From Bacteroidales bacterium (lineage in GTDB: Bacteria; Bacteroidota; Bacteroidia; Bacteroidales; UBA932), in contig JAFZUX010000007.1 in assembly GCA_017618115.1 (NCBI GenBank), positions 124,001 through 188,000 of the forward strand: a stretch of DNA of 64,000 bases, written 5' to 3'. The notes beneath the pieces are model-generated. The model did no database searches, was not told where the DNA came from, and saw only the letters and a program-made list of their open reading frames with translations. Below, in pieces: positions 9,644 to 64,000 of the stretch. The first letter of the stretch is position 1. Every line of letters begins with the position of its first letter. The position numbers were made by a program, and so were the translations under genes.

Positions 9644-11758
9644 TTATTCTTTTATATCCATTTCATTGAGAAGATATCCTGCACCTCCGAACTTATCTAT
9701 GATAAAGAGGACGTAACGGATATCTACGTTAATACATCTCTGAAGGTTTGGCTCAAAGAGAATGTCACTGCATAGACTCTCCCAGTTGCCGTCAAATGCA
9801 AGACCAATAAGTTCACCCTTTGCATTGAGAACATCACTTCCGGAGTTACCTCCCGTAATATCATTGTTGGTGAGGAAGCAGGTTGGCATCTCTCCATTCT
9901 TCATTGCATAGCGTCCAAAGTCTTTAGCCTCATAAAGCTCTTTGAGTTTTGCAGGAACAATGAACTCAGGATTGTTAGGATCCTCTTTCTGCATTACACC
10001 CTCAAGGGTTGTATAGTACTTATAATCAACGCCGTCCTTAGGTGAGTAGCCGCCAACTTTTCCGTAGGTGAGTCTCATTGTAGAGTTAGCATCCGGGTAG
10101 ATTGGCTTATTGCCGTTCATCTCCATAAGGCCCTTCATAAATTTCTTATTTGCATCTCCTGCATCACCGGCAGCTCTGTACTCTGCAATCATTTTAGGGT
10201 AAGATGTTGAAAACTCACTCATATACTGGAATGCAGGATCCTCATTGAGTTTGAACTCTTTGTTGTTGAGAGCACCCATTGCACCCTCCAGGGTTGTAAA
10301 TACGGAGTTGTCAAAAATATGATCTACATATTTATCTATGTTGCCATCGTAAAGAGAATCTATAGTCTTGTAAACCTTTGGAATATAGGTTGGTTCAGTA
10401 ACGTTCTCCTTGTAGGTTTTCAAAAGAACTTTGGTTGTTGCACGGTCTACGGTTGGGTTGTAATCTTTGTAGAAACTCTCAATAGACTTCTTTGCAGCCT
10501 CCGGATTTCTCATACGTGCAAGCTGAGAAACTGGACGCATAATTTCAACATTGTTCAGAGTCTCCATAAGGAACTCAAGCGCTCTCATTGGCTTAACGGA
10601 TTTCTTTGCAGCCTCGTTAATCTTAGCTACGCAATCTCCGTATTCTGCCTGGCGCTGAGGATCTTGTGCAACCCACTCGTTAAACTCCTGCTCCATCTGT
10701 CTCTTCTTTTCTACGGTGTTTAGTTTTGCAAAACTCTCGTTCATTCCAATGCTGTTCTTACGGTAGTTGGAAGAACTTGCAAACTTGTTTGCATACTGGA
10801 GGTTAATCTTAGGATCCTTTCTCATAAAGGATTTCCAAACATCCTCTTTGGCTGTTCTTCCAATAATCATAGGAACGTTCTGAGCGTCTCTTCTTTGAAT
10901 AATCTCCTCACTTGTAAGGTAACGGGATGTACGTCCAGGGAAACCTATAACCATTGCAAAATCTCCTGGCTTGTAGCCCTTTAGAGAGATGCTTAGGAAT
11001 TTTTTTGGAGTGTAAGGAACATTGTCTGCACTGTAGTCTGCGGGGTTGTTGTCCTTGTCTGCATAGATTCTGAAAACAGAGAAGTCTCCGGTATGACGAG
11101 GCCACTCCCAGTTGTCTGTCTCACCTCCGAACTTTCCAATTGAGGAAGGCGGTGCGCCTACAAAGCGGATATCCTTAAAGGTCTTTGTAATAACAAGATA
11201 GTAAGCATTGCCTTCATACATTGTAGCAAGGCGTGAACCAAGATATTTGTCATCTCCAATATATGCTTTGCTGAGTGAATCCTGGAAATCCTTCATAAAC
11301 TTCTGAGAAGCTCTTGGGTCCATTCCCTTTGCTTTATTCTCTGCCTCTGTAACAGCATCTGTTACATCTATGAAGCGGTCTATAAAGGTAACGGTGAGGC
11401 CCGGTGCAGGAAGTTCCTGGCTCTGGTTCATTGCCCAGTATCCGTCTTTAAGGTAATCATGCTCTGTGGTGGAAAGCTTCTGAATGCTGCCGTATCCGCA
11501 GTGATGGTTGGTAAGCACAAGTCCCTGGTTAGAAACAACTTCTGCAGTACATCCGCCGCCAAAAATCATAATGGCGTCTTTGAGAGAAGAGTTGTTCACA
11601 TCATAAATCTGCTTTGCGGTAAGCTTGCAGCCGGCAGCCTTCATATCCTTAATGTTCATCTTCTCAAGGAGCTGGAGGAGCCACATTCCCTCATCTGCTT
11701 TGGCTCCAAATGGAAGAGCCATCAGAAGGGCAAGAATCATTACTCTGAATTTTTTCAT
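9644..11758 (-). CDS. S46 family dipeptidyl-peptidase (DPP7-like)
   Basis: Periplasmic serine exopeptidase that removes dipeptides from peptides, central to peptide catabolism in Bacteroidota. The 704 residues are typical for S46. A signal peptide ends near GAKAD. The catalytic His sits in [12 protein letters not shown] (residues 85-86), the conserved [17 protein letters not shown] holds the Asp, and the nucleophile is Ser639 in [10 protein letters not shown]. The residue 18 positions after the nucleophile is Gly (in FDGNWE). In characterised enzymes this position is Gly in DPP7 (broad/hydrophobic) and Arg in DPP11 (Asp/Glu-specific), so DPP7-like specificity is inferred. Start chosen because it gives a complete signal peptide. 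Confidence 0.93.
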
Positions 11759-11764
11759 AATCTA

Positions 11765-11794
11765 TTTGTTTGATGTTAATTTTCCGTAATTTTG
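11765..11794 (+). promoter_or_regulatory. Promoter for glycerate kinase (TTTG-N18-TAnnTTTG)
   Basis: TTTG at 11765-11768, 18 bases, then TAATTTTG at 11787-11794, an exact fit to the Bacteroidota vegetative -7 consensus. The box overlaps an upstream in-frame TTG codon, which argues that translation begins at the ATG at 11819, 24 bases further on. Confidence 0.7.
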
Positions 11795-11804
11795 AAATCG
11801 CTGG

Positions 11805-11835
11805 TAAAATTATCAAAAATGGAGTCACAAAACAA
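11805..11835 (-). promoter_or_regulatory. Possible promoter for the S46 peptidase operon
   Basis: On the minus strand TTG (11835-11833), 20 bases, then TAATTTTA (11812-11805), one base off the TAnnTTTG consensus, 46 bases before the peptidase ATG. It overlaps the 5' end of the divergent glycerate kinase gene, so the two promoters would be interleaved. Confidence 0.38.
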
Positions 11836-13060
11836 CCCAATTTCTAAAGTTGTAATATGTTCAGATAAGTTCAAGGGCGGCCTCTCTTCTCTTCAGGTGG
11901 CGGAGGCGGTGAAGGATGGACTGCTCCGTTACGGAGTATTCAAAAACGGAGAGCCCTCCTTTTTGAGTTACGCTCCTGAGTTTGAAGTTGTGGAGATGGC
12001 GGACGGAGGAGACGGAAGCGCCGTTCTCTTTGGCAGAATATGTAATGCGGAAAGAATTGAGACAAAGGTTGTTGGACCTCTTGGAAAAGAGACGGACTCC
12101 TATTATATGTTCTCCAAAAATCTTCCAACCGGAGAGGAGTTGCCGTGTGCCTTCATAGAGTGCGCAACCGCCTGCGGCCTTGCAATGGTTCCACTGAAAG
12201 AGAGAAATCCTCTTAAGACCACCACCTACGGAGTTGGGCAACTTATTCGTAACGCCGTTGAAAAGGGAGCCAAAAAAATCTGGATTGGAATTGGTGGAAG
12301 CGCAACCAATGACTGCGGTTTGGGAATGGCGCAGGCGTTAGGCTTTGAGATGGAGGGGGTTAAAGAGTTCGTTACCGGCGGAAATCTGAGCCGTATTACG
12401 CAAATCTCTGAGATTAAGAATGCTACGTGGAGGGAGAAACTTTATTCCACGGAGTTTGTAATGGTTAACGATGTGGATAATCCGCTGCTGGGTCCAACCG
12501 GCGCAACATACATATACTCACCGCAAAAGGGGGCAACAAAGCGGGCGATGGAGCAGATGGAGGAGGGGTTCAAAAAGGTTCTCTCCACGCTGCCAAAGTT
12601 TGGAAAATCCAGTGTAACTGCACAAGAGTCAGCACTTTTTAAGGGCGCTGGTGCTGCAGGTGGTTTGGGGTTTGCGCTGTTTCATTTTTTAGGAGCGGAG
12701 GCGGTTAGCGGCTTTGAGTTCTTTGGAAACTACCTTCAGAATCTCAATAAAAAAATCGGGGAGGCGGAACTTATCATTACAGGTGAGGGAAGGGTAGACA
12801 ACCAGAGCCTTATGGGAAAAGTGGTTGGCGGCGTTACCCAAACTCTGAGCAAAATAAAGGAGCACAAAAGGTTATGGGTGGTTTGCGGTAAGTCCTCCAT
12901 CGGGGAGGAAGAGATTGCAAAAAATAGTGGCAATGCGGAGGTAAAGATATATCAACTTGCAGATATTGAGCCTAATATGGCGGCCAGAATGAAAAGGGAG
13001 GCGCCCCTGCTCTCCCAGCTGACCTACTTTGCCGCAATGGAAACGGATGCCCTCCTGTAG
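11819..13060 (+). CDS. Glycerate kinase
   Basis: Phosphorylates D-glycerate with ATP (type I glycerate kinase fold, GlxK/GarK family). Near the N-terminus VVICSDKFKGGLSSLQVAEAV is the family signature; IECATACGLAMV, WIGIGGSATNDCGLGM and the later GAGAAGGLGFAL and LIITGEGRVDNQS are the other conserved blocks. With the ATG at 11819 the protein has 413 residues, slightly longer than the usual ~380. The frame is open back to a TTG at 11792, but that codon lies inside a good promoter and is rejected. It is divergent from the S46 peptidase and stands alone; a weak hairpin plus T-run follows. Confidence 0.92.
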   Translation: MESQNNPISKVVICSDKFKGGLSSLQVAEAVKDGLLRYGVFKNGEPSFLSYAPEFEVVEMADGGDGSAVLFGRICNAERIETKVVGPLGKETDSYYMFSKNLPTGEELPCAFIECATACGLAMVPLKERNPLKTTTYGVGQLIRNAVEKGAKKIWIGIGGSATNDCGLGMAQALGFEMEGVKEFVTGGNLSRITQISEIKNATWREKLYSTEFVMVNDVDNPLLGPTGATYIYSPQKGATKRAMEQMEEGFKKVLSTLPKFGKSSVTAQESALFKGAGAAGGLGFALFHFLGAEAVSGFEFFGNYLQNLNKKIGEAELIITGEGRVDNQSLMGKVVGGVTQTLSKIKEHKRLWVVCGKSSIGEEEIAKNSGNAEVKIYQLADIEPNMAARMKREAPLLSQLTYFAAMETDALL

Positions 13061-13127: not shown

Positions 13128-15278
13128 ATGAAGACTTACGAAACCAAAAACATTAGGAACGTCGTACTTCTAGGTAGCCCTAAATCGGGCAAAACTACTT
13201 TTGTGGAGAGTATGATGTTTGAGGGCAAGGTCATAGACCGCCGCGGCTCCGTTGAGGGCAAAAACACAATGAGTGACAACACGGAGATTGAACAGATTTA
13301 TCAGAGATCTATCTACTCAACTCTCTTGTACACAGAGTTTATGGACACCAAGTTCAACATTATTGATACTCCGGGTTCAGATGACTTTGTTGGCGGTGTT
13401 TATTCAGCATTCTCAGTTTGTGACAGCGGTGTTGTTCTGGTTAACGCTACTCAGGGCGTTGAGGTTGGAACAGAGATTTTCATCCGCCAAGCGCAGAAGC
13501 ACAACAAGCCTATCGTAATTGCTGTAAACCAGCTGGATAGCGAGAAGGCAGATTGGCATCAGGCAATTGATTCCCTCAAGAACGTTTATGGTGGTAAGAT
13601 TGTTTTGGTTCAGTTCCCGGTATCTGTGGGCACAGAGTTCAACGCATTCATAGACGTGCTCAAGATGAAGATGTACCGCTTTAAGGATGAGAACGGTACA
13701 AGAGAGGAACTTGAGATTCCTGCAGACCTGATGGATGAGGCACAGACTCTCCAGCAGGAACTTATTGAGAAGGCTGCAGAGAATGACGAGCAGCTGATGG
13801 AGATTTTCTTTGACAAGGGTTCACTTACAGAGGACGAGGTTCGTTCAGGTCTTAAGGCCGGAATGCTTAAAGATGAAATCTTCCCTGTATTCTGCCTCTC
13901 TGCAAAGAAAGACATTGGTGTTAAGAGAGTTATGGAGTTCGTTATCAACACTCTTCCGGATCCGGGTCAGCATGAGAGCGAACTTAAAGACGGCGGCAGC
14001 GTAAAGGTAGATTCTAACGGTCCTACTTCATTGTTCTTCTACAAGACCGCTTTGGAGCAGCACCTGGGAGACGTTGCTTACTTCAAGGTTATGACCGGTA
14101 CACTCAAAGAGGGTATGGATCTTTACAACCCTGAGACCGGTGATAAAGAGAGAGTTACCATTATCTATGCAGCTGCCGGCAAGAAGAGAGAGAAGGTTTC
14201 CGAGATGAAGGCAGGTGATATTGGATGCACCGTTAAACTTAAGAGCGTTAAGGTTGGTCAGACTCTTTGCGCAGGTTGCGAGTATTCATACGCACCTACC
14301 AAATTCCCTGAGCCTAAGTTCCGTACAGCAATCAAAGCTAAGGAGGAGAAGGATGAGGAGAAACTTGGAGAACTTCTCAACCGCGCATCCGCAGAGGATC
14401 CTACAATTGTTGTAGAGTACTCTAAGGAGCTCAAACAGACCATCTTAAGCGGACAGGGCGAGCACCATATCAACATTCTCAAGTGGAAACTCAACAACGT
14501 AGATAAACTTGAGATTGACCTTATGGCTCCAAAAATCCCTTACAGAGAGACCATTACAAAGGTTGCTATTGCAGACTACCGTCACAAGAAACAGTCCGGT
14601 GGTGCAGGTCAGTTCGGTGAGGTTCACCTTCTCATTGAGCCTTACTACGAGGGCAAACCTGAGCAGAACAAGTTCAAGGTAGACGGCCAGGAGATGGTTC
14701 TCAACGTTAAGGGCAAAGAGGAGTATCCACTGGAGTGGGGCGGTAAGTTGGAGTACTACAACTGTATCGTGGGAGGTGCTATTGATGCACGCTTCATGCC
14801 TGCTATCCTTAAGGGAGTTATGGAGAAAATGACAGAGGGTCCTCTCACCGGTTCATACGCAAGAGATATCCGCGTTTATGTATTTGACGGTAAGATGCAC
14901 CCGGTAGATTCCAACGAGCTCTCCTTCAAACTCGCTGCACGTAACGCATTTAAGGAGGCCTTCAAGAAGGCGGGTCCAAAGATCATGGAGCCTATCTACA
15001 ACATTGAGGTAATGGTTCCGTCTGACTGCATGGGAGATGTAATGAGTGATCTCCAGAACCGCCGTGCACTCATAGAGGGTATGCAGAGCGAGAACGGCTT
15101 TGAGGTTCTCAAAGCCAGAATACCTCTTGCAGAACTCTACAGATACTCAACAACCCTCAGCTCACTCACTTCAGGTAGAGCTACCTTCTCTCAGAGATTT
15201 GCTGAGTACCAGCAAGTTCCTGCAGATGTACAGGAGAAACTCCTGAAGGCATACGAGGAGAGCGAAAAGGACGAATAA
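13128..15278 (+). CDS. EF-G paralogue with degenerate GTPase motifs (EF-G2 type)
   Basis: A full-length five-domain elongation factor G homologue (716 residues). The P-loop is intact as GSPKSGKTT (16-24), but switch I lacks the RGITI motif: RSIYS (60-64) stands in its place, removing the Mg-binding Thr. Switch II reads DTPGSDDF, so the catalytic His of DTPGH is Ser84. The NKxD motif is NQLD (134-137). These changes predict poor or no GTP hydrolysis. Bacteroides thetaiotaomicron has an EF-G2 reported to support translation during starvation without GTPase activity, and this gene is probably its counterpart. The stop overlaps the lolD start (TAATG). Confidence 0.9.
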   Translation: MKTYETKNIRNVVLLGSPKSGKTTFVESMMFEGKVIDRRGSVEGKNTMSDNTEIEQIYQRSIYSTLLYTEFMDTKFNIIDTPGSDDFVGGVYSAFSVCDSGVVLVNATQGVEVGTEIFIRQAQKHNKPIVIAVNQLDSEKADWHQAIDSLKNVYGGKIVLVQFPVSVGTEFNAFIDVLKMKMYRFKDENGTREELEIPADLMDEAQTLQQELIEKAAENDEQLMEIFFDKGSLTEDEVRSGLKAGMLKDEIFPVFCLSAKKDIGVKRVMEFVINTLPDPGQHESELKDGGSVKVDSNGPTSLFFYKTALEQHLGDVAYFKVMTGTLKEGMDLYNPETGDKERVTIIYAAAGKKREKVSEMKAGDIGCTVKLKSVKVGQTLCAGCEYSYAPTKFPEPKFRTAIKAKEEKDEEKLGELLNRASAEDPTIVVEYSKELKQTILSGQGEHHINILKWKLNNVDKLEIDLMAPKIPYRETITKVAIADYRHKKQSGGAGQFGEVHLLIEPYYEGKPEQNKFKVDGQEMVLNVKGKEEYPLEWGGKLEYYNCIVGGAIDARFMPAILKGVMEKMTEGPLTGSYARDIRVYVFDGKMHPVDSNELSFKLAARNAFKEAFKKAGPKIMEPIYNIEVMVPSDCMGDVMSDLQNRRALIEGMQSENGFEVLKARIPLAELYRYSTTLSSLTSGRATFSQRFAEYQQVPADVQEKLLKAYEESEKDE

Positions 15279-53337: not shown

Positions 53338-54594
53338 ATGCAGAAGTTTATTGACACTTACAACTTTGAGGGCAAGAAGGTTATTGCCAGAGTAGATTTC
53401 AACGTTCCGTTGGACAAGGATTTTAAAGTTACGGATGCTACAAGAATTCGTGCAGCCGTTCCTACAATCAAGAAAGTGTTGGATGGTGGCGGAGCCATTA
53501 TCCTTATGTCTCACCTGGGAAGACCAAAGGGAGTGGACGAGAAGTTCTCCCTTAAACATATCATTTACAAGGTAGAAGAGCTGCTGGGCGTTAAGGTTCT
53601 CTTCTGTCCGGATTGTATGAAGGCAGACCAGATGGCTAAGGATCTTAAGATGGGAGAGGTTCTTCTTCTTGAGAACTTGAGATTCTATGCCGAGGAGGAG
53701 GGAAAACCAAGAGGATTGGCAGAGGATGCTTCAGATGATGAGAAGAAGGCTGCTAAGGCAAAGGTTAAGGAGAGTCAGAAGGAGTTTACAAAGCACCTGG
53801 CTTCTTATGCTGATTGCTACATCAATGACGCCTTTGGTACGGCACACCGCGCGCACGCTTCTACAGCTCTGATAGCAAGTTACTTCCCTGAGGATAAGAT
53901 GTTCGGTTACATTATGGAGGGAGAGATTAAGGCTATTGATAAAGTTGTTAAGAATCCGCAGCATCCGGTTACCGCAATCATTGGCGGTTCTAAGGTTTCA
54001 TCCAAGATAGGAATTCTTCAGAACCTTGTAGAAAAGGTTGACAATATGGTAATTGGCGGAGGTATGGCATTTACTTTTGTAAAGGCAAAGGGCGGAAAGA
54101 TTGGTAACTCAATCTGCGAGGACGATCAGCTTCAGGTTGCTCTGGATATTCTTAAGGCAGCTGAGGATAAGGGAGTTAAGATATTCATTCCTAAGAGCGT
54201 TGTTTGTGCTGATAAGTTTGAGAATGACGCCAATACTCAGATTTGCCCAATTGATCAGATTCCTGAAGGTTGGGAAGGAATGGACGGCAGCGCAGAGTTC
54301 CTTTCAGAGATTGAGGGCGTAATAATGGGCTCAAAGACAGTTCTTTGGAACGGTCCTATTGGCGTATTTGAGATGCCTAAATTTGCGGTCGGAACTCTTG
54401 AGATTGCAAAGACACTTGCAAAGGCTACTCAGGAGAAGGGTTGCTTCACCCTGGTTGGTGGAGGCGACTCCGTTGCCGCTGTTAACCAGATGGGTTATGC
54501 AGACAAAGTAAGCTACGTCTCCACCGGTGGCGGAGCAATGCTGGAATACCTTGAGGGTAAGGTTCTTCCTGGAATTAAGGCAATACTGGACTAA
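53338..54594 (+). CDS. pgk: Phosphoglycerate kinase
   Basis: Glycolytic kinase, 418 residues. [63 protein letters not shown] (read in blocks) and the nucleotide motif [13 protein letters not shown] near the end are diagnostic. Monocistronic, with its own -7 box. The stop codon lies in a possible hairpin and overlaps the convergent mgtC gene by four bases. Confidence 0.97.
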
Positions 54595-54617
54595 GAGATT
54601 TCTATCTTAAGTCCTTT
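54588..54617 (+). terminator. Possible weak terminator at the pgk/mgtC junction
   Basis: GGACTAAGA (54588-54596) pairs with TCTTAAGTCC (54605-54614) with one bulged base, followed by TTT. It covers the pgk stop codon. Short T-run, so doubtful. Confidence 0.35.
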
Positions 54618-55220
54618 AGATTTAGCAAGAAGATTTTCTGCAATATGCAGATAATCTTTTTGTTTTATATGGAGTTCAAACAAAGATGCCGAGTCTGATA
54701 CTGAGAAGTTCTTAATGTTATCTCCAATACCAAGCTCTCTGAAAATTGCAAAGAGTCTTGTAAGATCTTCCTGCTTCTCGGAAAGGAGAGAGATGGTGAG
54801 GATTTTTTCACCAACTCTTCTGGTGATGAAATGCATTGCCTCCAGACAGATTACGGTAATCAGAGTTGCCGCAACCGCAAGCGTGTACATCTCTGAGCCA
54901 CAGGTAAGTCCAATGGCGGCAGCTACCCAGAGACCGGCCGCGGTAGTGATACCGCGGACCGCATTCTTCTGGAAGATAATAACACCGGCACCTATGAAAC
55001 CGATACCGGAAACTACCTGCGCAGCAACACGCGCTCTGTCATAAGTGGTATCTCCAAAAGCGAATTGAGAAACTACCATAAAAAGTGCCGAGCCGAGAGC
55101 CACAACAAAGTGGGTTCTCAATCCCGCCTCTTTTGCCCTCATTTCTCTTTCAAATCCAATAAGTCCGCCTAGAAGTCCAGCTATGAAGATTCTAAGTATA
55201 AAATTCCATTCAATTGTCAT
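54591..55220 (-). CDS. MgtC/SapB-family membrane protein
   Basis: A 209-residue protein with four to five TM helices and a C-terminal soluble (ACT-like) domain. The family motif is [20 protein letters not shown] followed by [19 protein letters not shown]. MgtC proteins act in low-Mg and phosphate adaptation, and MgtC of Salmonella influences phosphate transport and ATP synthase. It lies 21 bases downstream of the SLC13 gene and is probably the last gene of the phosphate-type operon. Confidence 0.9.
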
Positions 55221-56816: not shown

Positions 56817-57286
56817 TACTTCCAGTTCTTGTACGGGTTCTTCATTAACATGGAGTTGTAATACTTCACATCTCCGGTTACCTCCTCACCCAACCACTCA
56901 GGTTTGTCAAAAGCCTCATTCTCGCTTCCGAGCTCAACCTCGGCAACAACCAGTCCGTCATTGTCTCCGTAGAACTCGTCTACCTCGAATGTGTGCTCTC
57001 CGGCTTTAACCAGATAGCGGGTCTTGTCTATAACGCCGGGCTCGCAGATCTTCAGAAGATCCTGAACCTCAGCAACAGGAATCTCTTTCTCCCACTCAAA
57101 ACGGCTTGCTCCGCTGTCGGAACCAATACCCTTTATTGTGATGAAACCCTTCTCTCCCTTTACGCGTACGCGAACGGTTCTCTCAGGAATAGAGCAGAGG
57201 TATCCCTGGGTGATACGGGTTGCTTTGAAAGCGGCATCCTTAAAGTTGCCCTTTACCAAAAATTTGCGTTCGATTTCCTGTGCCAT
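56816..57286 (-). CDS. CYTH-domain triphosphatase-type protein
   Basis: A 156-residue protein with the CYTH/TTM signature EIERKFLV at the start (ExExK), then TVRVRVKGEKGFITIKG (R-x-R), FEWEKEIP (E-x-E-K) and VVAEVELGSENEAFDKPEWLG (E-x-E). Tunnel enzymes of exactly this size and start, such as the Nitrosomonas and Clostridium tripolyphosphatases, hydrolyse inorganic triphosphate; others are thiamine triphosphatases or adenylate cyclases. In this operon inorganic oligophosphate hydrolysis is the likely task. One base after the neighbouring CYTH-like gene. Confidence 0.85.
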   Translation of the reverse strand: MAQEIERKFLVKGNFKDAAFKATRITQGYLCSIPERTVRVRVKGEKGFITIKGIGSDSGASRFEWEKEIPVAEVQDLLKICEPGVIDKTRYLVKAGEHTFEVDEFYGDNDGLVVAEVELGSENEAFDKPEWLGEEVTGDVKYYNSMLMKNPYKNWK

Positions 57287-57288
57287 AA

Positions 57289-57927
57289 TTATTCGTTTGC
57301 TAGAGGTTTGTCACTCATTCCAATAACACGCTTGATAGCCTGCAGATAGTTGATATTCTCAACACCCTCAAGACCAACGTCTTTGATAGTCTTCTTAATA
57401 TCCTCAATCTCTGTAGACTCGGAGTTGATGGTAACCACCTTTGCACCGTTGATAAGCACGTTACCAACCTCGCAAATAGTACCGTTTACCATATAACCGA
57501 AGCGCTGCTTGTGAACGCGCACTGCTGCAAGGTCCGGATTAGCCTTTACCATCGCGATGAACTCATCAAAAGTATAGGTATCCTTTGTAAGAGCCGGCAT
57601 CTCTACCATGAAAGCAGGAAATACTTCTTTCTCAAGAACTTCCTTACTGATAGGGAATTCACCCTTCATCAAAGGATTCCACTGCTCCAATCCGTCTACG
57701 CTCTGGACAAATGTCTTGATGTCCATTTTGCCGTCACGAATCTTTGTATTGTTGATGTCGTTCTTCTTAGAGATGATATAAATCTCATCGCTCTCTCTCT
57801 CCCAAACCTTCTCTGGTACAGGGGCTGAGAGGCGTGCCATTCTCTTATGAGCCTCACAGAAACACTGACCGAAACTGCGGAACTCAAAACGAGGCTTGCT
57901 TATCTCACCAATTTTTAATTCTCCCAT
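57289..57927 (-). CDS. Divergent CYTH-like protein
   Basis: A 212-residue protein, not annotated by an obvious motif. Several features point to a second CYTH-type tunnel: FEFR (14-17) at the start, TKIRDGKMDIKTF (61-73), WNPLMKGEFPI (83-93), AVRVHKQRFGY (135-145) and a strand-rich ICEVGNVLINGAKVVTINSE ending in E-x-E-like TEIED with a closing helix. Sequence is too divergent from its neighbour to be a recent duplicate. I infer a CYTH-fold phosphohydrolase or a polyphosphate-binding partner; the residue pattern suggests charged tunnel walls. Confidence 0.6.
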   Translation of the reverse strand: MGELKIGEISKPRFEFRSFGQCFCEAHKRMARLSAPVPEKVWERESDEIYIISKKNDINNTKIRDGKMDIKTFVQSVDGLEQWNPLMKGEFPISKEVLEKEVFPAFMVEMPALTKDTYTFDEFIAMVKANPDLAAVRVHKQRFGYMVNGTICEVGNVLINGAKVVTINSESTEIEDIKKTIKDVGLEGVENINYLQAIKRVIGMSDKPLANE

Positions 57928-57953
57928 ATTTCTGTGTTTTAGTAAGTTAATAA

Positions 57954-58769
57954 TTATTGAAGACCGGTTACAGGGTCTGAAGTATCGTTAGTGTTCTTTG
58001 CACCAGGGGTAGCGGTAGTGTAGTACCACTTACCTGATCCGTCAGGAACGCGGCTGTAAGATGCAGGAGCAGTCTTAGCTACTGTTACAAGGTTGAAGTC
58101 ATCCAAATCCTTCTTAACAGGATCTGTAAGCTGTACTCTTACGGCTTTCTTTGCAGAGAGACCTGAAGTGAATACGAGCTCAGGATCATAACCCTCGTGC
58201 TTTCCGCCGGCACCTACAACATCCTCGCTGTAGAGGAGAAGGTATGCACCTGCTGCAAGTTCACGGTTAGGACCTGTCCATACATCCTTGGTATCCTTGA
58301 AGATCTTTATACCCTTAATGTTGATAGCTTTGCTACCTGTGTTGATAATCTCAATAAACTTGTCGTTTCCGTTGATCTCATTGAGTTTCAAAGGAGTAAA
58401 GTCAATAGGAATTACACCTACTGTGTAAGATCCTTCAGAAGAAGTGGTTGTACCACCCTTGGTCTTTGCTACTACGTTGTAGGTAACAACGGTACCCATT
58501 GCCTGAGCAGGGATAACGCCTGAGTAAACGTTAGAAGCACCGGTCATCTTAACTGTCTGAGCAGCACCGCCGCCAACCTTGTAAACAAGATTAACCTCTT
58601 CAACTGTAACGAAAGCGGTAACTGTTGCAGTAACTGTTACATCATCAAGCTCGTTATAAGCTATGGTGTTGGAAATATTTGAAATTGCAGGGAATGGATA
58701 TACATCGTCCTTAACACAAGATGTGAAGGCAAATACCATTGCCAAAGCAGCTATTATAAACTTTTTCAT
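57954..58769 (-). CDS. Lipoprotein with lamin-tail domain
   Basis: Predicted lipoprotein of 271 residues (ATG at 58769; another four codons upstream) with lipobox AFTSC. An Ig-like region (VTATVTAFVTVEEVNLVYKV) is followed by a lamin-tail domain from about 130: FTPLKLNEINGNDKFIEIIN, then INIKGIKIFKD and ELAAGAYLLLYSEDVV. LTD domains are found in extracellular nucleases and surface proteins. It sits between the porin and the CYTH genes; a role in gathering substrate at the outer surface is only a guess. Confidence 0.8.
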   Translation of the reverse strand: MKKFIIAALAMVFAFTSCVKDDVYPFPAISNISNTIAYNELDDVTVTATVTAFVTVEEVNLVYKVGGGAAQTVKMTGASNVYSGVIPAQAMGTVVTYNVVAKTKGGTTTSSEGSYTVGVIPIDFTPLKLNEINGNDKFIEIINTGSKAINIKGIKIFKDTKDVWTGPNRELAAGAYLLLYSEDVVGAGGKHEGYDPELVFTSGLSAKKAVRVQLTDPVKKDLDDFNLVTVAKTAPASYSRVPDGSGKWYYTTATPGAKNTNDTSDPVTGLQ

Positions 58770-58783
58770 AATCCGTGACATTT

Positions 58784-60154
58784 TTAGAAGTTAATCTCAA
58801 GACGAACGCTGATCATATTGTAGTCTACACCTGCCTTGCCCTTCTTCTCAACAACCTGAGTGTAGTCCTTTGTAGGTTTGCCGTCTGCATCGTGACCAAC
58901 GAAGAGTTTGCCCTTACCGTTAGCATATCTGTCATTGTTGTTATGCTGGTAGTTAATCATAAACTTAACGTTGTTGTAGATCCACCAGTTGAGTCCGATT
59001 GTGTAAGCCTCTGCAGAACCACCGTAAACGGTCTTGCTGTTGAGGTCACAATACTCGTAACGTCCTGCAATCTCAAGGTCTCCCCATTTGCGGCCGTATC
59101 TTACCTTGGTGTACTTGCCACCGTTAGCATCGTAACGCTGTGAACCACCGCAGAGAAGGTAGCTTGCCTGAATGTATCCACCGCCAAAGTTCTTTACTGC
59201 ATTATCTGCAGCGGTTTTCTTAAAGTGAACGTTGTCACCAATCCAAGCCATCTCATAACGGAGTCCCTGCCAGTGACCTGCTAACTCAACAGTCCAGAGC
59301 CAGTTGTGGTCAAAACCAGGAAGGTTGTCTGTATCAAGATATTTCTTACGGTTGATGCTTGTGGAGTTACGTGCGCTTGCGCGGTACATTCCCCAAGCAC
59401 TAGGCTCTACGCTTGTAAGAGCTCTGCGGTAAGATGCTGCAAAGCCGATGTGAAGGCTTGCGTCCTGAAGTTTGTAGAGAGGGCGGAAAACAACCTTGGT
59501 TGTGATGGAGTAACCAGCATCACGGCCGTAATCCTTGTTGTTGTCTGCAACGTTTGTCCACTCTTCACTTCCTGCAACCTCCTGAGAGAAAGCGCCTATT
59601 GATCCCCAGAACCACTTGTCTGCATATTTTGCATTGATACCGAGGTGACGGGAAGGAGCCAATGCTGAAGTAACCATAGGTCTCTCCATGAACATCAGGT
59701 AACGAGAAGAGGTGTTACGCTGCATAGAGAAGTTCTCCTTAAAGTTACCGGCCTGGAGTTCCAGATTCTTAACACCGGTGTAACGAACAATAGCGTCCTT
59801 AAGTTCAACAAGACCGTTTGCGAGGTCCATATCGAACTCTCCGTACCACTTATTGGTTACCTGTGCCTTAACGGCGAAACGAGCACGGCGGATGCTTACT
59901 CCGTTGCCGATCTGATCGTAATCTTTGCTGTTCTTTCCAAAGAATACGGCTCCGTCAACTTGTGCACGTCCGTCAAACCAGAATTTGTAGCCACTCTTCT
60001 GTGACTCAAACACTGTAATACCGTCCTGAGCCTCAACATCCAGAACATCTGAATTAACTGCGACTCCGTACTGGTTGCGTTTTACGTTTTCCTGGGCAAA
60101 TACCGCTCCGAAAGTGAGCAGTAAAGTAATTGCCAGCAATAATGTTTTTCGCAT
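58784..60154 (-). CDS. OprO/OprP-type phosphate/polyphosphate porin
   Basis: Outer-membrane beta-barrel of 456 residues with signal peptide (ending AVFAQ). The OprP/OprO signature is visible in FWFDGRAQVDGAVFFG, IRRARFAVKAQVTNKWYGEFD, LVELKDAIVRYTGVKNLELQ and AGNFKENFSMQRNTSS. Members select phosphate (OprP) or pyro-/polyphosphate (OprO). In Bacteroidota this family also includes uncharacterised porins, so substrate is inferred from the operon. Preceded by 26 bases from the HTH fusion gene. Confidence 0.86.
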   Translation of the reverse strand: MRKTLLLAITLLLTFGAVFAQENVKRNQYGVAVNSDVLDVEAQDGITVFESQKSGYKFWFDGRAQVDGAVFFGKNSKDYDQIGNGVSIRRARFAVKAQVTNKWYGEFDMDLANGLVELKDAIVRYTGVKNLELQAGNFKENFSMQRNTSSRYLMFMERPMVTSALAPSRHLGINAKYADKWFWGSIGAFSQEVAGSEEWTNVADNNKDYGRDAGYSITTKVVFRPLYKLQDASLHIGFAASYRRALTSVEPSAWGMYRASARNSTSINRKKYLDTDNLPGFDHNWLWTVELAGHWQGLRYEMAWIGDNVHFKKTAADNAVKNFGGGYIQASYLLCGGSQRYDANGGKYTKVRYGRKWGDLEIAGRYEYCDLNSKTVYGGSAEAYTIGLNWWIYNNVKFMINYQHNNNDRYANGKGKLFVGHDADGKPTKDYTQVVEKKGKAGVDYNMISVRLEINF

Positions 60155-60180
60155 AGTAATTAATTGTTTGGTTAAGTGTA

Positions 60181-61788
60181 TTAAATTGATTTAATGAATG
60201 TTATAAGGTTATCGCTGCGTCTTAAGCCCAATTTGGATCTAAGTCTGTAGCGGTTAATTTCTACGCTCTTTGGTGTAATGCTCATAAGTGAGGCAATGTA
60301 CTTGCTTGAAAATCCTTGTCTTAGAAGGGTTGCAAGTTTTCTCTCATTCTCAGTAAGATGAGGGAAGGCCTCCATCAGTCTCATATTAAAGTCTTTGTGG
60401 AGTTCCTCGCTGCGGGAGTAGAAGTCGTTCATCTCTCTGGTGAAGTACATTCTATCGTGAAGAGACTTAAGCAACTCCTCCGTGCGGGCGTCCTTCTCCG
60501 CGCCGTCCTTTGTTGAGCGCACAATCTTCAATTGGTCAAAGACGCTCTCCATATAGTTTTTCTGCTCGCTTATTCCCATTGCAAAGTCTACCAACTCTTT
60601 ACGCTTGTTTTCCAGCTTGTTGAGAAGATCTTTCTCCGTCATTTCCGCTCTTACCTCCAGTGCGGAGAGAGATTTCTGTGTTGAATAGGAACGCTGCTGC
60701 TGAGAACGCAATATCTGTTTGTTGAGATTGTTCTTGTTCTGACGGCGTACAAAGAACATCACTCCGCCAACTGTGAGGAATATTCCCAAAACTATTACGG
60801 TTCCAAGTATCTCTCTGTCTAAAATCTTTCCGAGGCAGAAAGAGAAAAGCAGTGCCAAAATAGGTGAGAGATAGGTAGTTACGATGCCCTTTATTATCTC
60901 CGGTCCCTCGGTAAGAGTTCTCTTGCTGAAGATGCTTATGCCTGCAAGTGAGGCAATGAAGAGCGTTCCTGCAGGAAGCGGAGTTGCTCTCAATCCTACA
61001 TACTGCGGAAGCGGAGAGGTGAATAGTGCAAAGCAAACCAAGAGTCCCATCATCAGTGAGAGTATGGACTGAGGGTTAGTATCCAACTCATAATCTGCAA
61101 TATCCCACTTGTCTCTGTTAATACTGCGTGCTACAAACGGCATCAGAACTATAACCGCACCAGCTGCAATATATGGAGCAAGAGTTTCATATTCAGACGG
61201 CAAATAGGTGAATATCATAGAGTTGTTGAGAGCTGCCGCAGGAATGAGCAGCAGCGCAACTATGGTTGCCAGTGAGAGCATTCTAGCCTCCGTCTTTGCA
61301 AAGTGTTTATTTCCTCCTCTCTGCATAAGGGCAAAGAGAAGGTAGAAAGTGGCGGAGATAAAGGCACAGAATAAAGGAGCCGCAATCCATGAGAGGATAT
61401 ACGGCATAGACTCCTTAAATGTTATGGTATCTCCGTTTGCCAGTCCCAATCCGGCAATTGCTGCTATAAAGGCAAACGGAACCGCAACAAAACGGCTCAG
61501 TTTCCACATAATTGCTGCGGTAAGGGCGGTGGCCATTCCCACGGGGAGTATGTTGGCTACAGATTTTGGAGAGAGAAGTCCCTCCGTCATCTGAGCAAAA
61601 TATTCAGGATAGAAGCAAGGAAGTATAATTCCTGCAATTAACAAAAGAGGGGCTGCTACTCTTATAAAAATCCTCTCTCCGGCTCCGGAAGCCAGTACGC
61701 TGCCACCTATATATGGATAGTCCATCAGCATCAGGGCTGAGGCGGCAAGTAGCAAAGAGATGATAATATATAAGAGAGTAATATCCAT
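60181..61788 (-). CDS. PiT-like membrane domain fused to LuxR-type HTH
   Basis: A 535-residue protein. Residues 1-348 hold about ten TM helices whose order and wording follow PiT phosphate transporters: AAIMWKLSRFVAVPFAFIAA and GLGLANG (about 92-119) match the AIIWNL...GLP...IGIGL segment, and TPLPAGTLFIASLAG (269-283) matches the PVSTTH...AG segment. The SSSH and STTH/ND transport motifs are lost. A linker and coiled coil (about 352-460) lead to a LuxR/NarL-type HTH (LTENERKLATLLRQGFSSKY, then SVEINRYRLRSKLGL, 478-522). I infer a phosphate transceptor-type regulator. Translationally coupled to the DUF47 gene (TAATG). Confidence 0.7.
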   Translation of the reverse strand: MDITLLYIIISLLLAASALMLMDYPYIGGSVLASGAGERIFIRVAAPLLLIAGIILPCFYPEYFAQMTEGLLSPKSVANILPVGMATALTAAIMWKLSRFVAVPFAFIAAIAGLGLANGDTITFKESMPYILSWIAAPLFCAFISATFYLLFALMQRGGNKHFAKTEARMLSLATIVALLLIPAAALNNSMIFTYLPSEYETLAPYIAAGAVIVLMPFVARSINRDKWDIADYELDTNPQSILSLMMGLLVCFALFTSPLPQYVGLRATPLPAGTLFIASLAGISIFSKRTLTEGPEIIKGIVTTYLSPILALLFSFCLGKILDREILGTVIVLGIFLTVGGVMFFVRRQNKNNLNKQILRSQQQRSYSTQKSLSALEVRAEMTEKDLLNKLENKRKELVDFAMGISEQKNYMESVFDQLKIVRSTKDGAEKDARTEELLKSLHDRMYFTREMNDFYSRSEELHKDFNMRLMEAFPHLTENERKLATLLRQGFSSKYIASLMSITPKSVEINRYRLRSKLGLRRSDNLITFIKSI

Positions 61789-62447
61789 TAAAGAGCTCTT
61801 TTTATGGTCATTACAGAGAGTTGCTCAGCCACCTTTACAGCCGCTTTGGCCAGATCTTCAATGTGGAGGGCAAAATAACGCAGGTGGAACTTCTCACTGA
61901 GTTTGAGGTTATCCATATTGTGAAATACCGTACGCTTGATTGACTGGCTCACTCTAACGGCCTCTTTCTCATAGAAATAGACCTGTGCGGTAGTTTCGGA
62001 TACGCTCTTTGGGGAGGTGAAGTAAGCCTTGGTTGCAGGGATTGTATTCTCTGCCGCCATTGCTGCCAACTCGCTGAGTTTCACAAATTCACGCTTAAGT
62101 TCATTAGGAATTCTAGGAGACTCTATCTCAAACTGAATAAGGTCTGTGCTGATAATCACAAAAATATGATCCAACCGCTCCAACAGACGCATGATGTCTC
62201 CTCTTGAACGAATAAGGTAGCCCCTGGAATAGAGCATGTTCTCTATCTCTCTGGTCTTGGAGGAGGCGTCGCTCTCCAAGGTTACCATCTTTCCCAAATT
62301 CTCCGTAAAACTATCCTCATCATCGTAAAGATAGTTCTTTACACCCTCTTTGAAGACTATTAAAGCGGCGTCTACGGTCTCCAGCAGGCAGCTTACAGAC
62401 TTTTCAAGCCTATCTGATTTCCTGGAAAAAATTTCATTTAACCCCAT
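61788..62447 (-). CDS. DUF47/PhoU-like phosphate transport regulator
   Basis: A 219-residue all-helical protein of the DUF47 (PhoU-related, Pit accessory) family. Typical blocks are MVTLESDASSKTREIENMLY with the E-x-D pattern, SRGDIMRLLERLDHIFVII and a closing ALHIEDLAKAAVKVAEQLSV. Such proteins are nearly always encoded next to PiT transporters, here replaced by the PiT-like HTH fusion, which strengthens the link of both to phosphate. First gene of the eight-gene unit, 28 bases after a -7 promoter box. Confidence 0.88.
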   Translation of the reverse strand: MGLNEIFSRKSDRLEKSVSCLLETVDAALIVFKEGVKNYLYDDEDSFTENLGKMVTLESDASSKTREIENMLYSRGYLIRSRGDIMRLLERLDHIFVIISTDLIQFEIESPRIPNELKREFVKLSELAAMAAENTIPATKAYFTSPKSVSETTAQVYFYEKEAVRVSQSIKRTVFHNMDNLKLSEKFHLRYFALHIEDLAKAAVKVAEQLSVMTIKRAL

Positions 62448-62452
62448 AGCGT

Positions 62453-62584
62453 AACTCTACATTGTTATTTGAATACAAATATACATTAATAGAGTCATAT
62501 TTAAACCATATGTAGAGTTTAAATATATAAATCTACGCCGCCTAATGCGTATTTATAGAGATTTTGTAGGGTGCTTGTAGAGTT
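62453..62584. promoter_or_regulatory. Repeated operator-like motifs at the phosphate-type operon promoter
   Basis: AACTCTACAT at 62453-62462 and its exact inverse ATGTAGAGTT at 62510-62519 flank the -7 box; a third copy, TTGTAGAGTT, lies at 62575-62584. The first two form a 10-bp inverted pair with centres 57 bases apart. Confidence 0.5.
62476..62483 (-). promoter_or_regulatory. -7 promoter box for the phosphate-type operon
   Basis: Minus strand TATATTTG, exact TAnnTTTG, 28 bases before the DUF47 ATG. The usual TTG is missing at -33, consistent with activator dependence (inference). Confidence 0.6.
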
Positions 62585-62604
62585 TTTTGAGAGGTTTTTG
62601 AGGG

Positions 62605-63774
62605 CTATTTGAGGTGTTTTAAAAGTCTATTTGAGAAGTTTGTGGTACCAAGGTCCGTCATGTGGTTGCCGTCTACGGTATCTTCATTACCAATACCCCT
62701 CTTTTTTGAGACGTCTATAAAGTGCAGATTCTTAAGCGGTCCCGTCTTTACACGCTCTCCGGTAACGGGATCTGTATATTCTGCACCCTTGGTTTTCAGG
62801 CGTTTATAAATATCTCTGATTAGTTTGTTCTCTTTCACCATATCATCATTGTTACCCGGGAGGATAAACTGCTGAGGATATTCAAAGTTGTTTACAAGGT
62901 ATACCGGAACGTTAGGATTGGCTGCTGCAATGGTACCTATAAAGTAGTCTGATGAGTCTCTGGTGGTGTTGTAGGTACAGTTTGGAAGGCAATCCAGCAC
63001 GTATGCGCTTACTGGAATTGTCTTAATCCAGTCTGCCATATTGCCGTCCATTCTGCCGTTGCCTGAGAAGCCCAGGTTTATGGTCTCCTTACCCAGTTTT
63101 CTCTCTATAATTGCAGGGTATGCCATACCGGGACGAGAGACGCAACCTCCTTGTGTTATGGAAGTTCCGTAGAAAAGAATAGGAAGTCCGTTGTTTCCCG
63201 GGAGCAGTTCTCCCTGCGGAGGGAATATGGTTGCAGAGGAATCTATACCAATCTCCATCTTGTCAACTCCGTCATACAGAGGGAGATAGATCATATACTC
63301 CTTCTTTCCTCCATACATCTTTTTCACAAATATATTTGCCGAGTTCTTGCCGTTAGGGAAGGCGGTTCCGGCAAACTTCCACTCCTTTTTCTTAGGGTTG
63401 TTGAGTACGTAAAGATCCATTCCTTTTATGCCGGTATAGGCCATGTGGCTCATTCCAAAGTTGTATGTAAGTGTCCAGCGGGCACCAATACAGGTTGCAT
63501 CCGTAGAGAATCTGATAGCTATTCCCGCTCCGTCACAGCCCAACTGCCATAGCTCTTTTCTTACAACATCCTTCAACCTGTTAGGAATTCTGTAGTAGTA
63601 ACAACTGTCTGCCGTTGGCTTTTCTCCCTGGCCAATCATAACAGCATCTCCGCTCTCTATAAGCTGCTGAACGTTGTAAAACTTAAGCTCGGAAACCTTT
63701 TGTCCCCAGATAGTTACACTGAATAAAACCGCTGCAGTAAGCAGCACTCCCTTAAAGAATGAATCTCTTTTCAT
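62605..63774 (-). CDS. SGNH/GDSL-family exported hydrolase
   Basis: A 389-residue exported protein (signal peptide ends TIWGQ) with an N-terminal beta-sandwich domain (KFYNVQQLIESGDAVMIGQG to about residue 190) and a C-terminal SGNH hydrolase domain. The nucleophile lies in LPILFYGTSITQGGC, the N block in LGFSGNGRMDG and the catalytic Asp-His near the end in VDGNHMTDLG. Family members are acyl or polysaccharide esterases; substrate unknown. Five bases after miaA. Confidence 0.88.
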   Translation of the reverse strand: MKRDSFFKGVLLTAAVLFSVTIWGQKVSELKFYNVQQLIESGDAVMIGQGEKPTADSCYYYRIPNRLKDVVRKELWQLGCDGAGIAIRFSTDATCIGARWTLTYNFGMSHMAYTGIKGMDLYVLNNPKKKEWKFAGTAFPNGKNSANIFVKKMYGGKKEYMIYLPLYDGVDKMEIGIDSSATIFPPQGELLPGNNGLPILFYGTSITQGGCVSRPGMAYPAIIERKLGKETINLGFSGNGRMDGNMADWIKTIPVSAYVLDCLPNCTYNTTRDSSDYFIGTIAAANPNVPVYLVNNFEYPQQFILPGNNDDMVKENKLIRDIYKRLKTKGAEYTDPVTGERVKTGPLKNLHFIDVSKKRGIGNEDTVDGNHMTDLGTTNFSNRLLKHLK

Positions 63775-63779
63775 ATTGT

Positions 63780-64000
63780 TTATATTTTCTTATTAGCGGC
63801 CGTCAGCCATTCTATCTCTATCCCCCGTCTTTCCATTCCGCGGAGCCAGGTCATCTGCCTCTTTGCAAACTGATGGATGGCTATTGCCAGATGCTCCTTC
63901 ATATAGTCAAAATCTATCTCCCCGGTCAGATACTGAGTGATGAACTTGTACTCCAGTCCGTAGTAGATTAAATCCTCCGCCTTAATTCCTCTATCCAGGA
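63780..64000 (-). CDS. miaA: tRNA dimethylallyltransferase, C-terminal part (5' truncated by window edge)
   Basis: The last 72 residues before the stop at 63780 are present; the gene continues beyond the window end. The sequence YGLEYKFITQYLTGEI followed by AIAIHQFAKRQMTWLRGMER is the diagnostic end of MiaA, which adds a dimethylallyl group to A37 of tRNAs reading U-starting codons. Co-directional with, and five bases ahead of, the SGNH hydrolase. Confidence 0.93.
   Translation of the reverse strand, partial: LDRGIKAEDLIYYGLEYKFITQYLTGEIDFDYMKEHLAIAIHQFAKRQMTWLRGMERRGIEIEWLTAANKKI

Follow-up and report, generated by a model that had tools for sequence, protein, structure and literature searches.

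A PiT-type membrane domain joined to a LuxR-type helix-turn-helix in Bacteroidales: a candidate phosphate-responsive regulator of its own operon

The locus and its gene cluster

The protein under study is encoded on the reverse strand of the window (that is, the whole stretch of 64,000 nucleotides of Bacteroidales DNA analysed here), where it is the second gene of a cluster in the order PitR, PiT-HTH, porin O/P, lamin-tail-domain (LTD) protein, 212-aa protein, CYTH-domain protein and DASS symporter. The genes, the parts of the PiT-HTH protein and the upstream features are as follows.

62554..62583 (-): candidate operator array of three 11-bp-phased direct repeats, ACTCTACAAGC ACCCTACAAAA TCTCTATA (pattern search)
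62511..62518 (-): further exact ACTCTACA site (motif scan)
62476..62483 (-): TATATTTG, candidate promoter element, conserved in the relatives aligned
62454..62461 (+): exact ACTCTACA, inverted, within the presumed 5' leader (motif scan)
61788..62447 (-): DUF47/PhoU_div (PitR-type) accessory protein, 219 aa (Pfam PF01865, E=2.5e-7, 30.7 bits against a cut-off of 24.4)
60181..61788 (-): PiT-HTH open reading frame, ATG start, 535 aa
60829..61788 (-): PiT-derived, signature-degenerate membrane domain, residues 1-320 (approximately; Pfam, profile-profile and PDB profile searches)
60739..60810 (-): extra transmembrane (TM) helix, residues 327-350, with a basic stretch after it (hydropathy)
60379..60738 (-): cytoplasmic linker, residues 351-470, a coil by eye, common to other Bacteroidales TM-HTH proteins
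60181..60378 (-): LuxR/NarL-type helix-turn-helix (HTH), residues 471-535 (Pfam GerE above cut-off)
58784..60154 (-): porin O/P (PF07396, E=7.9e-38), 456 aa
57954..58781 (-): LTD protein (PF00932, E=3.2e-10), 275 aa
57289..57927 (-): unnamed protein, 212 aa
56816..57286 (-): CYTH-domain protein (PF01928, E=1.1e-15), 156 aa
55242..56816 (-): DASS-family sodium-coupled anion symporter (TIGR00785, 220 bits, above cut-off), 524 aa

A reading made earlier from the sequence alone had recognised a LuxR-type HTH at the C-terminus and coupling to a DUF47/PhoU-like gene, and both features are borne out. GerE/PF00196 matches residues 478-529 above its Pfam cut-off (E=8e-7; 29.0 bits against 23.5) and is found at E<=0.001 in all 56 members of the PiT-HTH family examined, while the ATG of the PiT-HTH frame and the TAA of the DUF47 gene share one base (TAATG). 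The DUF47 assignment rests on Pfam; the narrower model TIGR00153 scores 25.4 bits, far under its cut-off of 104.3. The coupling thus stands, but the unit is not a two-gene pair: it is a larger conserved cluster, presumably transcribed as a single message, with a repeat array of its own upstream. Of 39 genomes in the genus, 12, among them the one that the window comes from, have full-length orthologues of the window protein, and two further orthologues at the level of the taxonomic family share 31% and 28% identity with it. These orthologues, along with the conserved triad described next, confirm that a frame joining a PiT-derived domain to an HTH is real and not a product of chance.

Conservation of the cluster was followed in 80 relatives, mostly from metagenome-assembled genomes of ruminant-gut Bacteroidales, which were collected by a DUF47 search so that DUF47 is present by construction. 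The triad of DUF47, PiT-HTH and porin is whole at 75 of these loci (counting L093, in which a run of N covers the DUF47/PiT-HTH junction) and is cut by a contig end at the other five; the PiT-HTH frame is open at 76 (in L093 through the run of N), contig ends cutting the remaining four. An apparent fusion of the DUF47 and PiT-HTH genes in L093 was rejected, the junction being that run of N. Relatives of the LTD, 212-aa, CYTH and DASS genes were recorded at 64, 68, 56 and 2 of the 80 loci, respectively, many of which are too short to show these genes. Eighteen loci, 16 of them from Bacteroidales, were fetched further out. PitR is present at all 18, and the 212-aa, CYTH and DASS genes follow in order at 15 of the 16 Bacteroidales loci, in the same order beside an intact or a degenerate PiT domain; the sole exception, L188 (G363), has no porin, 212-aa or DASS gene in the fetched locus. 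LTD was not recognised in 6 of the 16, and at two HTH-less loci a DASS-like gene lies upstream of DUF47. The idea that the DASS symporter stands in for lost PiT transport was discarded, since DASS is found beside intact-signature fusions as well.

At the locus L189 of genome G089 (10574-12115, reverse strand), the PiT position between DUF47 and porin is occupied by a 513-aa HTH protein with similarity neither to PHO4 nor to the PiT domain of the family and with a GerE score below the Pfam cut-off; the 212-aa, CYTH and DASS genes then follow.

PiT ancestry, intact relatives and signature loss

By-eye matches to PiT transporters had been noted in two stretches of the window protein, and in the family alignment these coincide with the STSQ region of repeat 1 (residues 89-118) and the PVSSTQ region of repeat 2 (residues 269-285). 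In Pfam searches, PHO4/PF01384 matches residues 67-199 with E=1e-7 and 31.7 bits, just below the cut-off of 33.7, and reaches E<=0.001 in just 22 of 56 family members. The next membrane-type matches to the window protein are weaker (the best, RseC_MucC, at E=0.0058), and matches of other membrane families to the degenerate family are weak and scattered. Profile-profile comparison is more telling: when a profile of the membrane domain of 56 relatives was aligned with an intact PiT profile using hhalign, 303 colinear columns were obtained with a probability of 99.3 and E=1.9e-20 (an E-value for a single comparison), so that the homology spans both repeats and residues 1 to about 320. With a profile restricted to the window's near clade the probability is 98.2, and the controls (reversed PiT, NptA and DASS) reach at most 0.7. 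When the PDB was searched with the complete family profile, the PiT structure 6L85 came out on top (E=3.4e-8); its best stretch aligns residues 25-156 of the window protein to repeat 2 of the chain, in a non-colinear register which an inverted-repeat family allows. Across Pfam, hhalign and the PDB profile search no other membrane family scored better than PiT, and descent of the membrane domain from a PiT phosphate transporter is hence supported by sequence comparison.

A protein from the same taxonomic family as the window's host (L016, from G049) combines a canonical PiT domain with GANDAAN, STGQ and SSTQ motifs and the same HTH, and its gene likewise stands between DUF47 and porin genes. 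With L016 as query, 393 genomes of the order yielded at least 23 near-full-length matches (L032-L054; among these, L037 and L053 are interrupted or partial and were left out of the alignments), and PiT-HTH fusions with longer linkers were found in addition (L055 and L057, with L060 cut by a contig end). L018, which lacks PiT similarity, was set apart from the alignments. A phylum-wide draw of 395 genomes gave at least 12 matches at E<=1e-40, all outside Bacteroidales: DUF47 adjoins PiT in 12 of 12 and porin in 11 of 12, and none of the 12 carries an HTH on its PiT. In the order-wide search no more than three candidates were scored from any one genome, and the cut-offs were strict (1e-15 for the order, 1e-40 for the phylum), so that the fusion counts are lower bounds. 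The survey of Bacteroidota for fusions near DUF47, which the sequence-only reading had called for, thus places intact-signature fusions across Bacteroidales. Since none of the matches from outside the order has the HTH, while DUF47, PiT and porin stand together in nearly all of them, the HTH appears, within the draws made, to have been added in Bacteroidales to an older DUF47-PiT-porin operon. A further set of PiT proteins from other Bacteroidota orders (L164 and L166-L173) has frames of about 490-515 aa; four tails were inspected, and none is an HTH.

Loss of the transport signature can therefore not serve as a mark of the fusion, as had been supposed, since PiT-HTH fusions that retain it exist across Bacteroidales; read from their sequences, these relatives combine a transporter and a signalling domain in one polypeptide. 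The signature was compared between 58 degenerate sequences (42 near the window protein, 16 far) and 26 with intact signatures, the latter including L060, which runs into a contig end, and L056, L058, L059 and L061, whose frames end before the HTH (in L056 there is an in-frame stop). In L016 numbering, the 58 degenerate sequences lack N24, T98, Q100, the I-A-N of positions 185-187, S286 and Q288, and N20 is retained only in the far group, in about half of it. S97 survives in 94% of far and 12% of near sequences, and S285 in 69% and 36%, respectively. Two positions stand apart: an acid at D21 in TM1 is present in 57 of 58 (42/42 near and 15/16 far), and N183 in repeat 2 in 58 of 58. Hence, the GANDxAN and PxSST/STSQ-type motifs are mostly gone, while some Ser and structural Gly, Pro and His positions stay. 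In the window protein itself, most signature residues are replaced, with the TM1 acid (D23) and N188 kept; the earlier statement that the residues needed for transport are missing is accurate for most motif positions but not for these two.

A tree was built from DUF47 and the C-terminal part with the PiT domain left out, using a quick method without bootstrap and midpoint rooting; L018 and L050 were flagged as long branches. All 26 degenerate sequences in it, the window protein among them, form one branch (SH-aLRT 99), and partial losses of the signature in L049, and in L051 together with L054, lie elsewhere among intact relatives. Because these three are separate, the signature would have been lost at least three times if the intact state is ancestral. 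The degenerate PiT domain is under purifying selection: omega amounts to 0.06 (6 pairs), 0.08 (10 pairs) and 0.24 (3 pairs) in three sets, and for the HTH, which is held more tightly, to 0.03, 0.06 and 0.01.

The upstream repeat array

The ACTCTACA sites of the window lie near and upstream of the conserved TATATTTG, which we take to fit the Bacteroidetes -7 promoter element TAnnTTTG. Single exact copies of ACTCTACA occur at five other places within the window. The paired pattern, however, is matched three times against 0.12 expected from dinucleotide-preserving shuffles; two of these matches are the array itself, and the third, at 15134, lies inside an elongation-factor-G-type coding sequence (genome G000).

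Among the relatives, an exact ACTCTACA is present within 300 bp upstream of DUF47 at all 64 near-clade loci with upstream sequence (the sequence being too short for L016, L047, L053 and, in the near set, L079). After removal of redundancy it is found at 50 of 50 near loci, with 84 copies against 0.45 expected under equal base frequencies. When partners with up to two mismatches are tallied at the near loci, 47 lie at a spacing of 11 bp and 14 at the runner-up spacing of 24 bp, each pair of two exact copies being counted twice at every spacing alike. With looser matching, an 11-bp pair is seen at 60 of 64 near loci, a 13-bp pair at 31 of 64 and other spacings at fewer, against 0.4 in shuffles that keep single-base composition only. 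In the far group, 11 of 18 loci have an exact ACTCTACA, and 10 partners are found at 11 bp; among intact, half-intact and HTH-less loci taken together, 6 of 28 have an exact copy. Beyond the degenerate branch few loci show an 11-bp pair (2 of 19 intact, 0 of 3 half-intact). When whole genomes were scanned with one mismatch allowed, 5 of 13 held the 11-bp pair, each at the operon, the coding match in G000 being the one addition; 8 of 9 genomes held a single 22-bp pair, located at the operon position. A search of positions 57000-64000 against Rfam gave no match to an RNA element up to E=1.

Based on its position, phasing and conservation, the ACTCTACA array looks like a candidate autoregulatory operator, which the HTH of the PiT-HTH protein would bind. 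An origin of the array as a PhoB-type Pho box is disfavoured: PstB is over its cut-off in none of the 12 operon-bearing genomes of the genus, and in G065, which does have PstB, the paired site is found only at the operon. Shared regulation of the PF02690 transporter gene was likewise rejected, the motif being absent from the 300 bp upstream of that gene in 12 of 12 genomes; the regulon may for this reason consist of this operon alone.

Proposed regulation, its alternatives and further genes of the cluster

The phosphate context of the host genomes bears on what the protein may do. Neither a canonical PiT nor a PstB over cut-off was found in the 12 operon-bearing genomes of the genus, which are 73-92% complete so that these absences are soft, and each of the 12 has a PF02690 Na/Pi-type transporter. 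Among 27 congeners devoid of the operon, 14 have a canonical PiT and 26 a PF02690 transporter. The contrast in canonical PiT (0/12 against 14/27) has a Fisher p of 0.0026, which ignores shared descent and is thus confounded. PhoB scores amount to 117-122 bits in seven genomes of the genus, 196-218 bits in four genomes whose PstB exceeds its cut-off (G065, G266, G338 and G365) and 194 in G047, against a cut-off of 296; since this was reached by none of the seven genus genomes, none of five others and only 2 of 14 controls, absence of PhoB carries little weight.

We consider it rather probable that the window protein is a one-component transcription factor bound to the membrane, that a PiT phosphate transporter gave rise to its sensory half, and that it controls its own operon. 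As a PiT-derived domain that has lost most of its signature and is joined to an HTH, it is probably a phosphate sensor and regulator; we infer phosphate as the ligand, loss of transport in the degenerate branch and the sign of operon regulation. In the proposed course of events, a PitR(DUF47)-PiT-porin operon of Bacteroidota would have gained a TM-coil-LuxR HTH tail in Bacteroidales, yielding a transceptor, and in the window's branch the transporter half would then have shed most transport residues while keeping the TM1 acid and the Asn of repeat 2, as expected if binding of a ligand or ion and conformational change were kept and flux was dropped. Together with PitR, the ligand state of the PiT-derived domain might set the arrangement of coil and HTH, and these would bind the phased ACTCTACA repeats ahead of PitR to control the operon from PitR to DASS. 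It is tempting to go further and to see PitR and a PiT transporter at work as a transcription factor that needs neither kinase nor response regulator, nature offering a series that runs from transport-competent to transport-shedding forms and PiT/PitR sensing proceeding without flux; this wider claim we regard as attractive but somewhat short of an even chance.

The most serious alternative accepts a one-component regulator of the operon and lets the PiT-derived domain sense another oxyanion, sodium or the membrane potential. Most signature positions have changed, and the DASS and Porin_O_P families carry several anions and are not phosphate-specific. PitR, on the other hand, is kept at 80 of 80 loci (in a search made with PitR) and at all 18 later ones, intact-signature PiT fusions hold the same operon position, and the cluster includes a CYTH gene, presumably of the triphosphatase type, all of which speaks against a different ligand, which we consider unlikely. 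Rather less probable still is a domain that acts as a mere membrane anchor or dimerisation scaffold while cytoplasmic PitR/DUF47 reports phosphate to coil and HTH. Retention of PitR where most transport residues are gone would fit such an arrangement, and the strongest hint comes from the PiT-less HTH protein of G089 in its otherwise similar cluster; yet the domain is under purifying selection, and conservation of N183 and of the acid at D21 in all or all but one of the degenerate sequences goes beyond the needs of an anchor.

Continued transport of phosphate or another ion by an altered mechanism, which would make the degenerate protein a transceptor like its intact relatives, might account for the retained TM1 acid and Asn, for the Ser residues at positions 97 and 285 in much of the far group, and for the lack of a canonical PiT in the operon-bearing genomes as compared with their congeners. 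That contrast is confounded by shared descent, however, and the T and Q of STSQ, the second Ser and the Gln of SSTQ and the IAN of motif 3 are lost; moreover, every genome has its PF02690 transporter and the cluster its DASS symporter, so that we judge this highly improbable. Decay of the fusion gene to a state without present role, suggested by the loss of an otherwise conserved transport signature, deserves even less credence: open frames, omega well below 1 and conservation of cluster and repeat array largely contradict it.

The favoured reading, a regulator with a PiT-derived sensory half, can be set beside several known systems. With PiT/PHO4 transporters (PF01384; TmPiT, 6L85) the window protein shares colinear homology over the whole membrane domain and a DUF47/PitR partner; it differs in having lost most of the signature, in scoring below the Pfam cut-off and in its added TM helix, coil and HTH. 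Its C-terminal module is homologous to that of many other Bacteroidales TM-coil-LuxR HTH proteins, often 950-1000 aa long, but the sensory part is here a polytopic PiT domain. Coriobacteriia have membrane-bound LuxR regulators with MFS-like domains, which likewise join a transporter-like membrane domain to a LuxR HTH, in another transporter family and another phylum. In S. aureus, PitR/DUF47 acts with PitA on the phosphate two-component system PhoPR (PMC13170248); a PitR gene beside a PiT-type gene and, as a model, a role in phosphate homeostasis are common to both, whereas a DNA-binding domain on the PiT-type protein would, in our reading, make the two-component system unneeded. CbrA, described in PMC13022988 as a transceptor with an SLC5 transporter domain and a histidine kinase, also unites a transporter-type domain with a signalling output in one polypeptide; the output of the window protein is instead a DNA-binding domain, and its transporter family is PiT. 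Transceptors such as CbrA and PitR-PitA regulation were thus known before, and no fusion of PiT with a DNA-binding domain is named among the literature matches listed.

New are the intact-signature PiT-HTH fusions across Bacteroidales, the degenerate branch with its retained TM1 acid and Asn, the conserved seven-gene cluster, the phased ACTCTACA array, whose paired form is nearly confined to the operon in the genomes scanned, and the lack of a canonical PiT and of PstB over cut-off in the operon-bearing genomes of the genus. Whether phosphate is sensed by monitoring its import is an open question discussed in PMC13170248. With the same PitR and HTH on PiT domains that range from intact to signature-dead, the question of sensing versus transport becomes testable on natural relatives. 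If the proposed regulation holds, it would provide a route of phosphate control for bacteria with no detectable Pst, and a compact transporter-to-transcription-factor design together with a candidate operator.

Finally, the surroundings of the triad merit brief description. An MgtC-family membrane gene (54591-55220, reverse strand; PF02308, E=3.1e-39) is co-directional and lies 21 bp past the DASS gene. Upstream of the array, a GDSL-type esterase (62605-63774, reverse strand) has a relative in this position at just three of the 80 loci (L062, L063 and L131) and is for this reason probably not part of the system. The 212-aa protein has no match in Pfam or NCBIfam, and a PDB search with its family gave nothing below E=0.18; by eye it appears CYTH-like. 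Within the cluster its gene is the one most strongly conserved (14 aligned members share 90-99% identity, while DUF47 identities go down to 54%), and its family is present as two tandem copies, one of them divergent, in L181 (7435-8713) and L189 (5481-6785).
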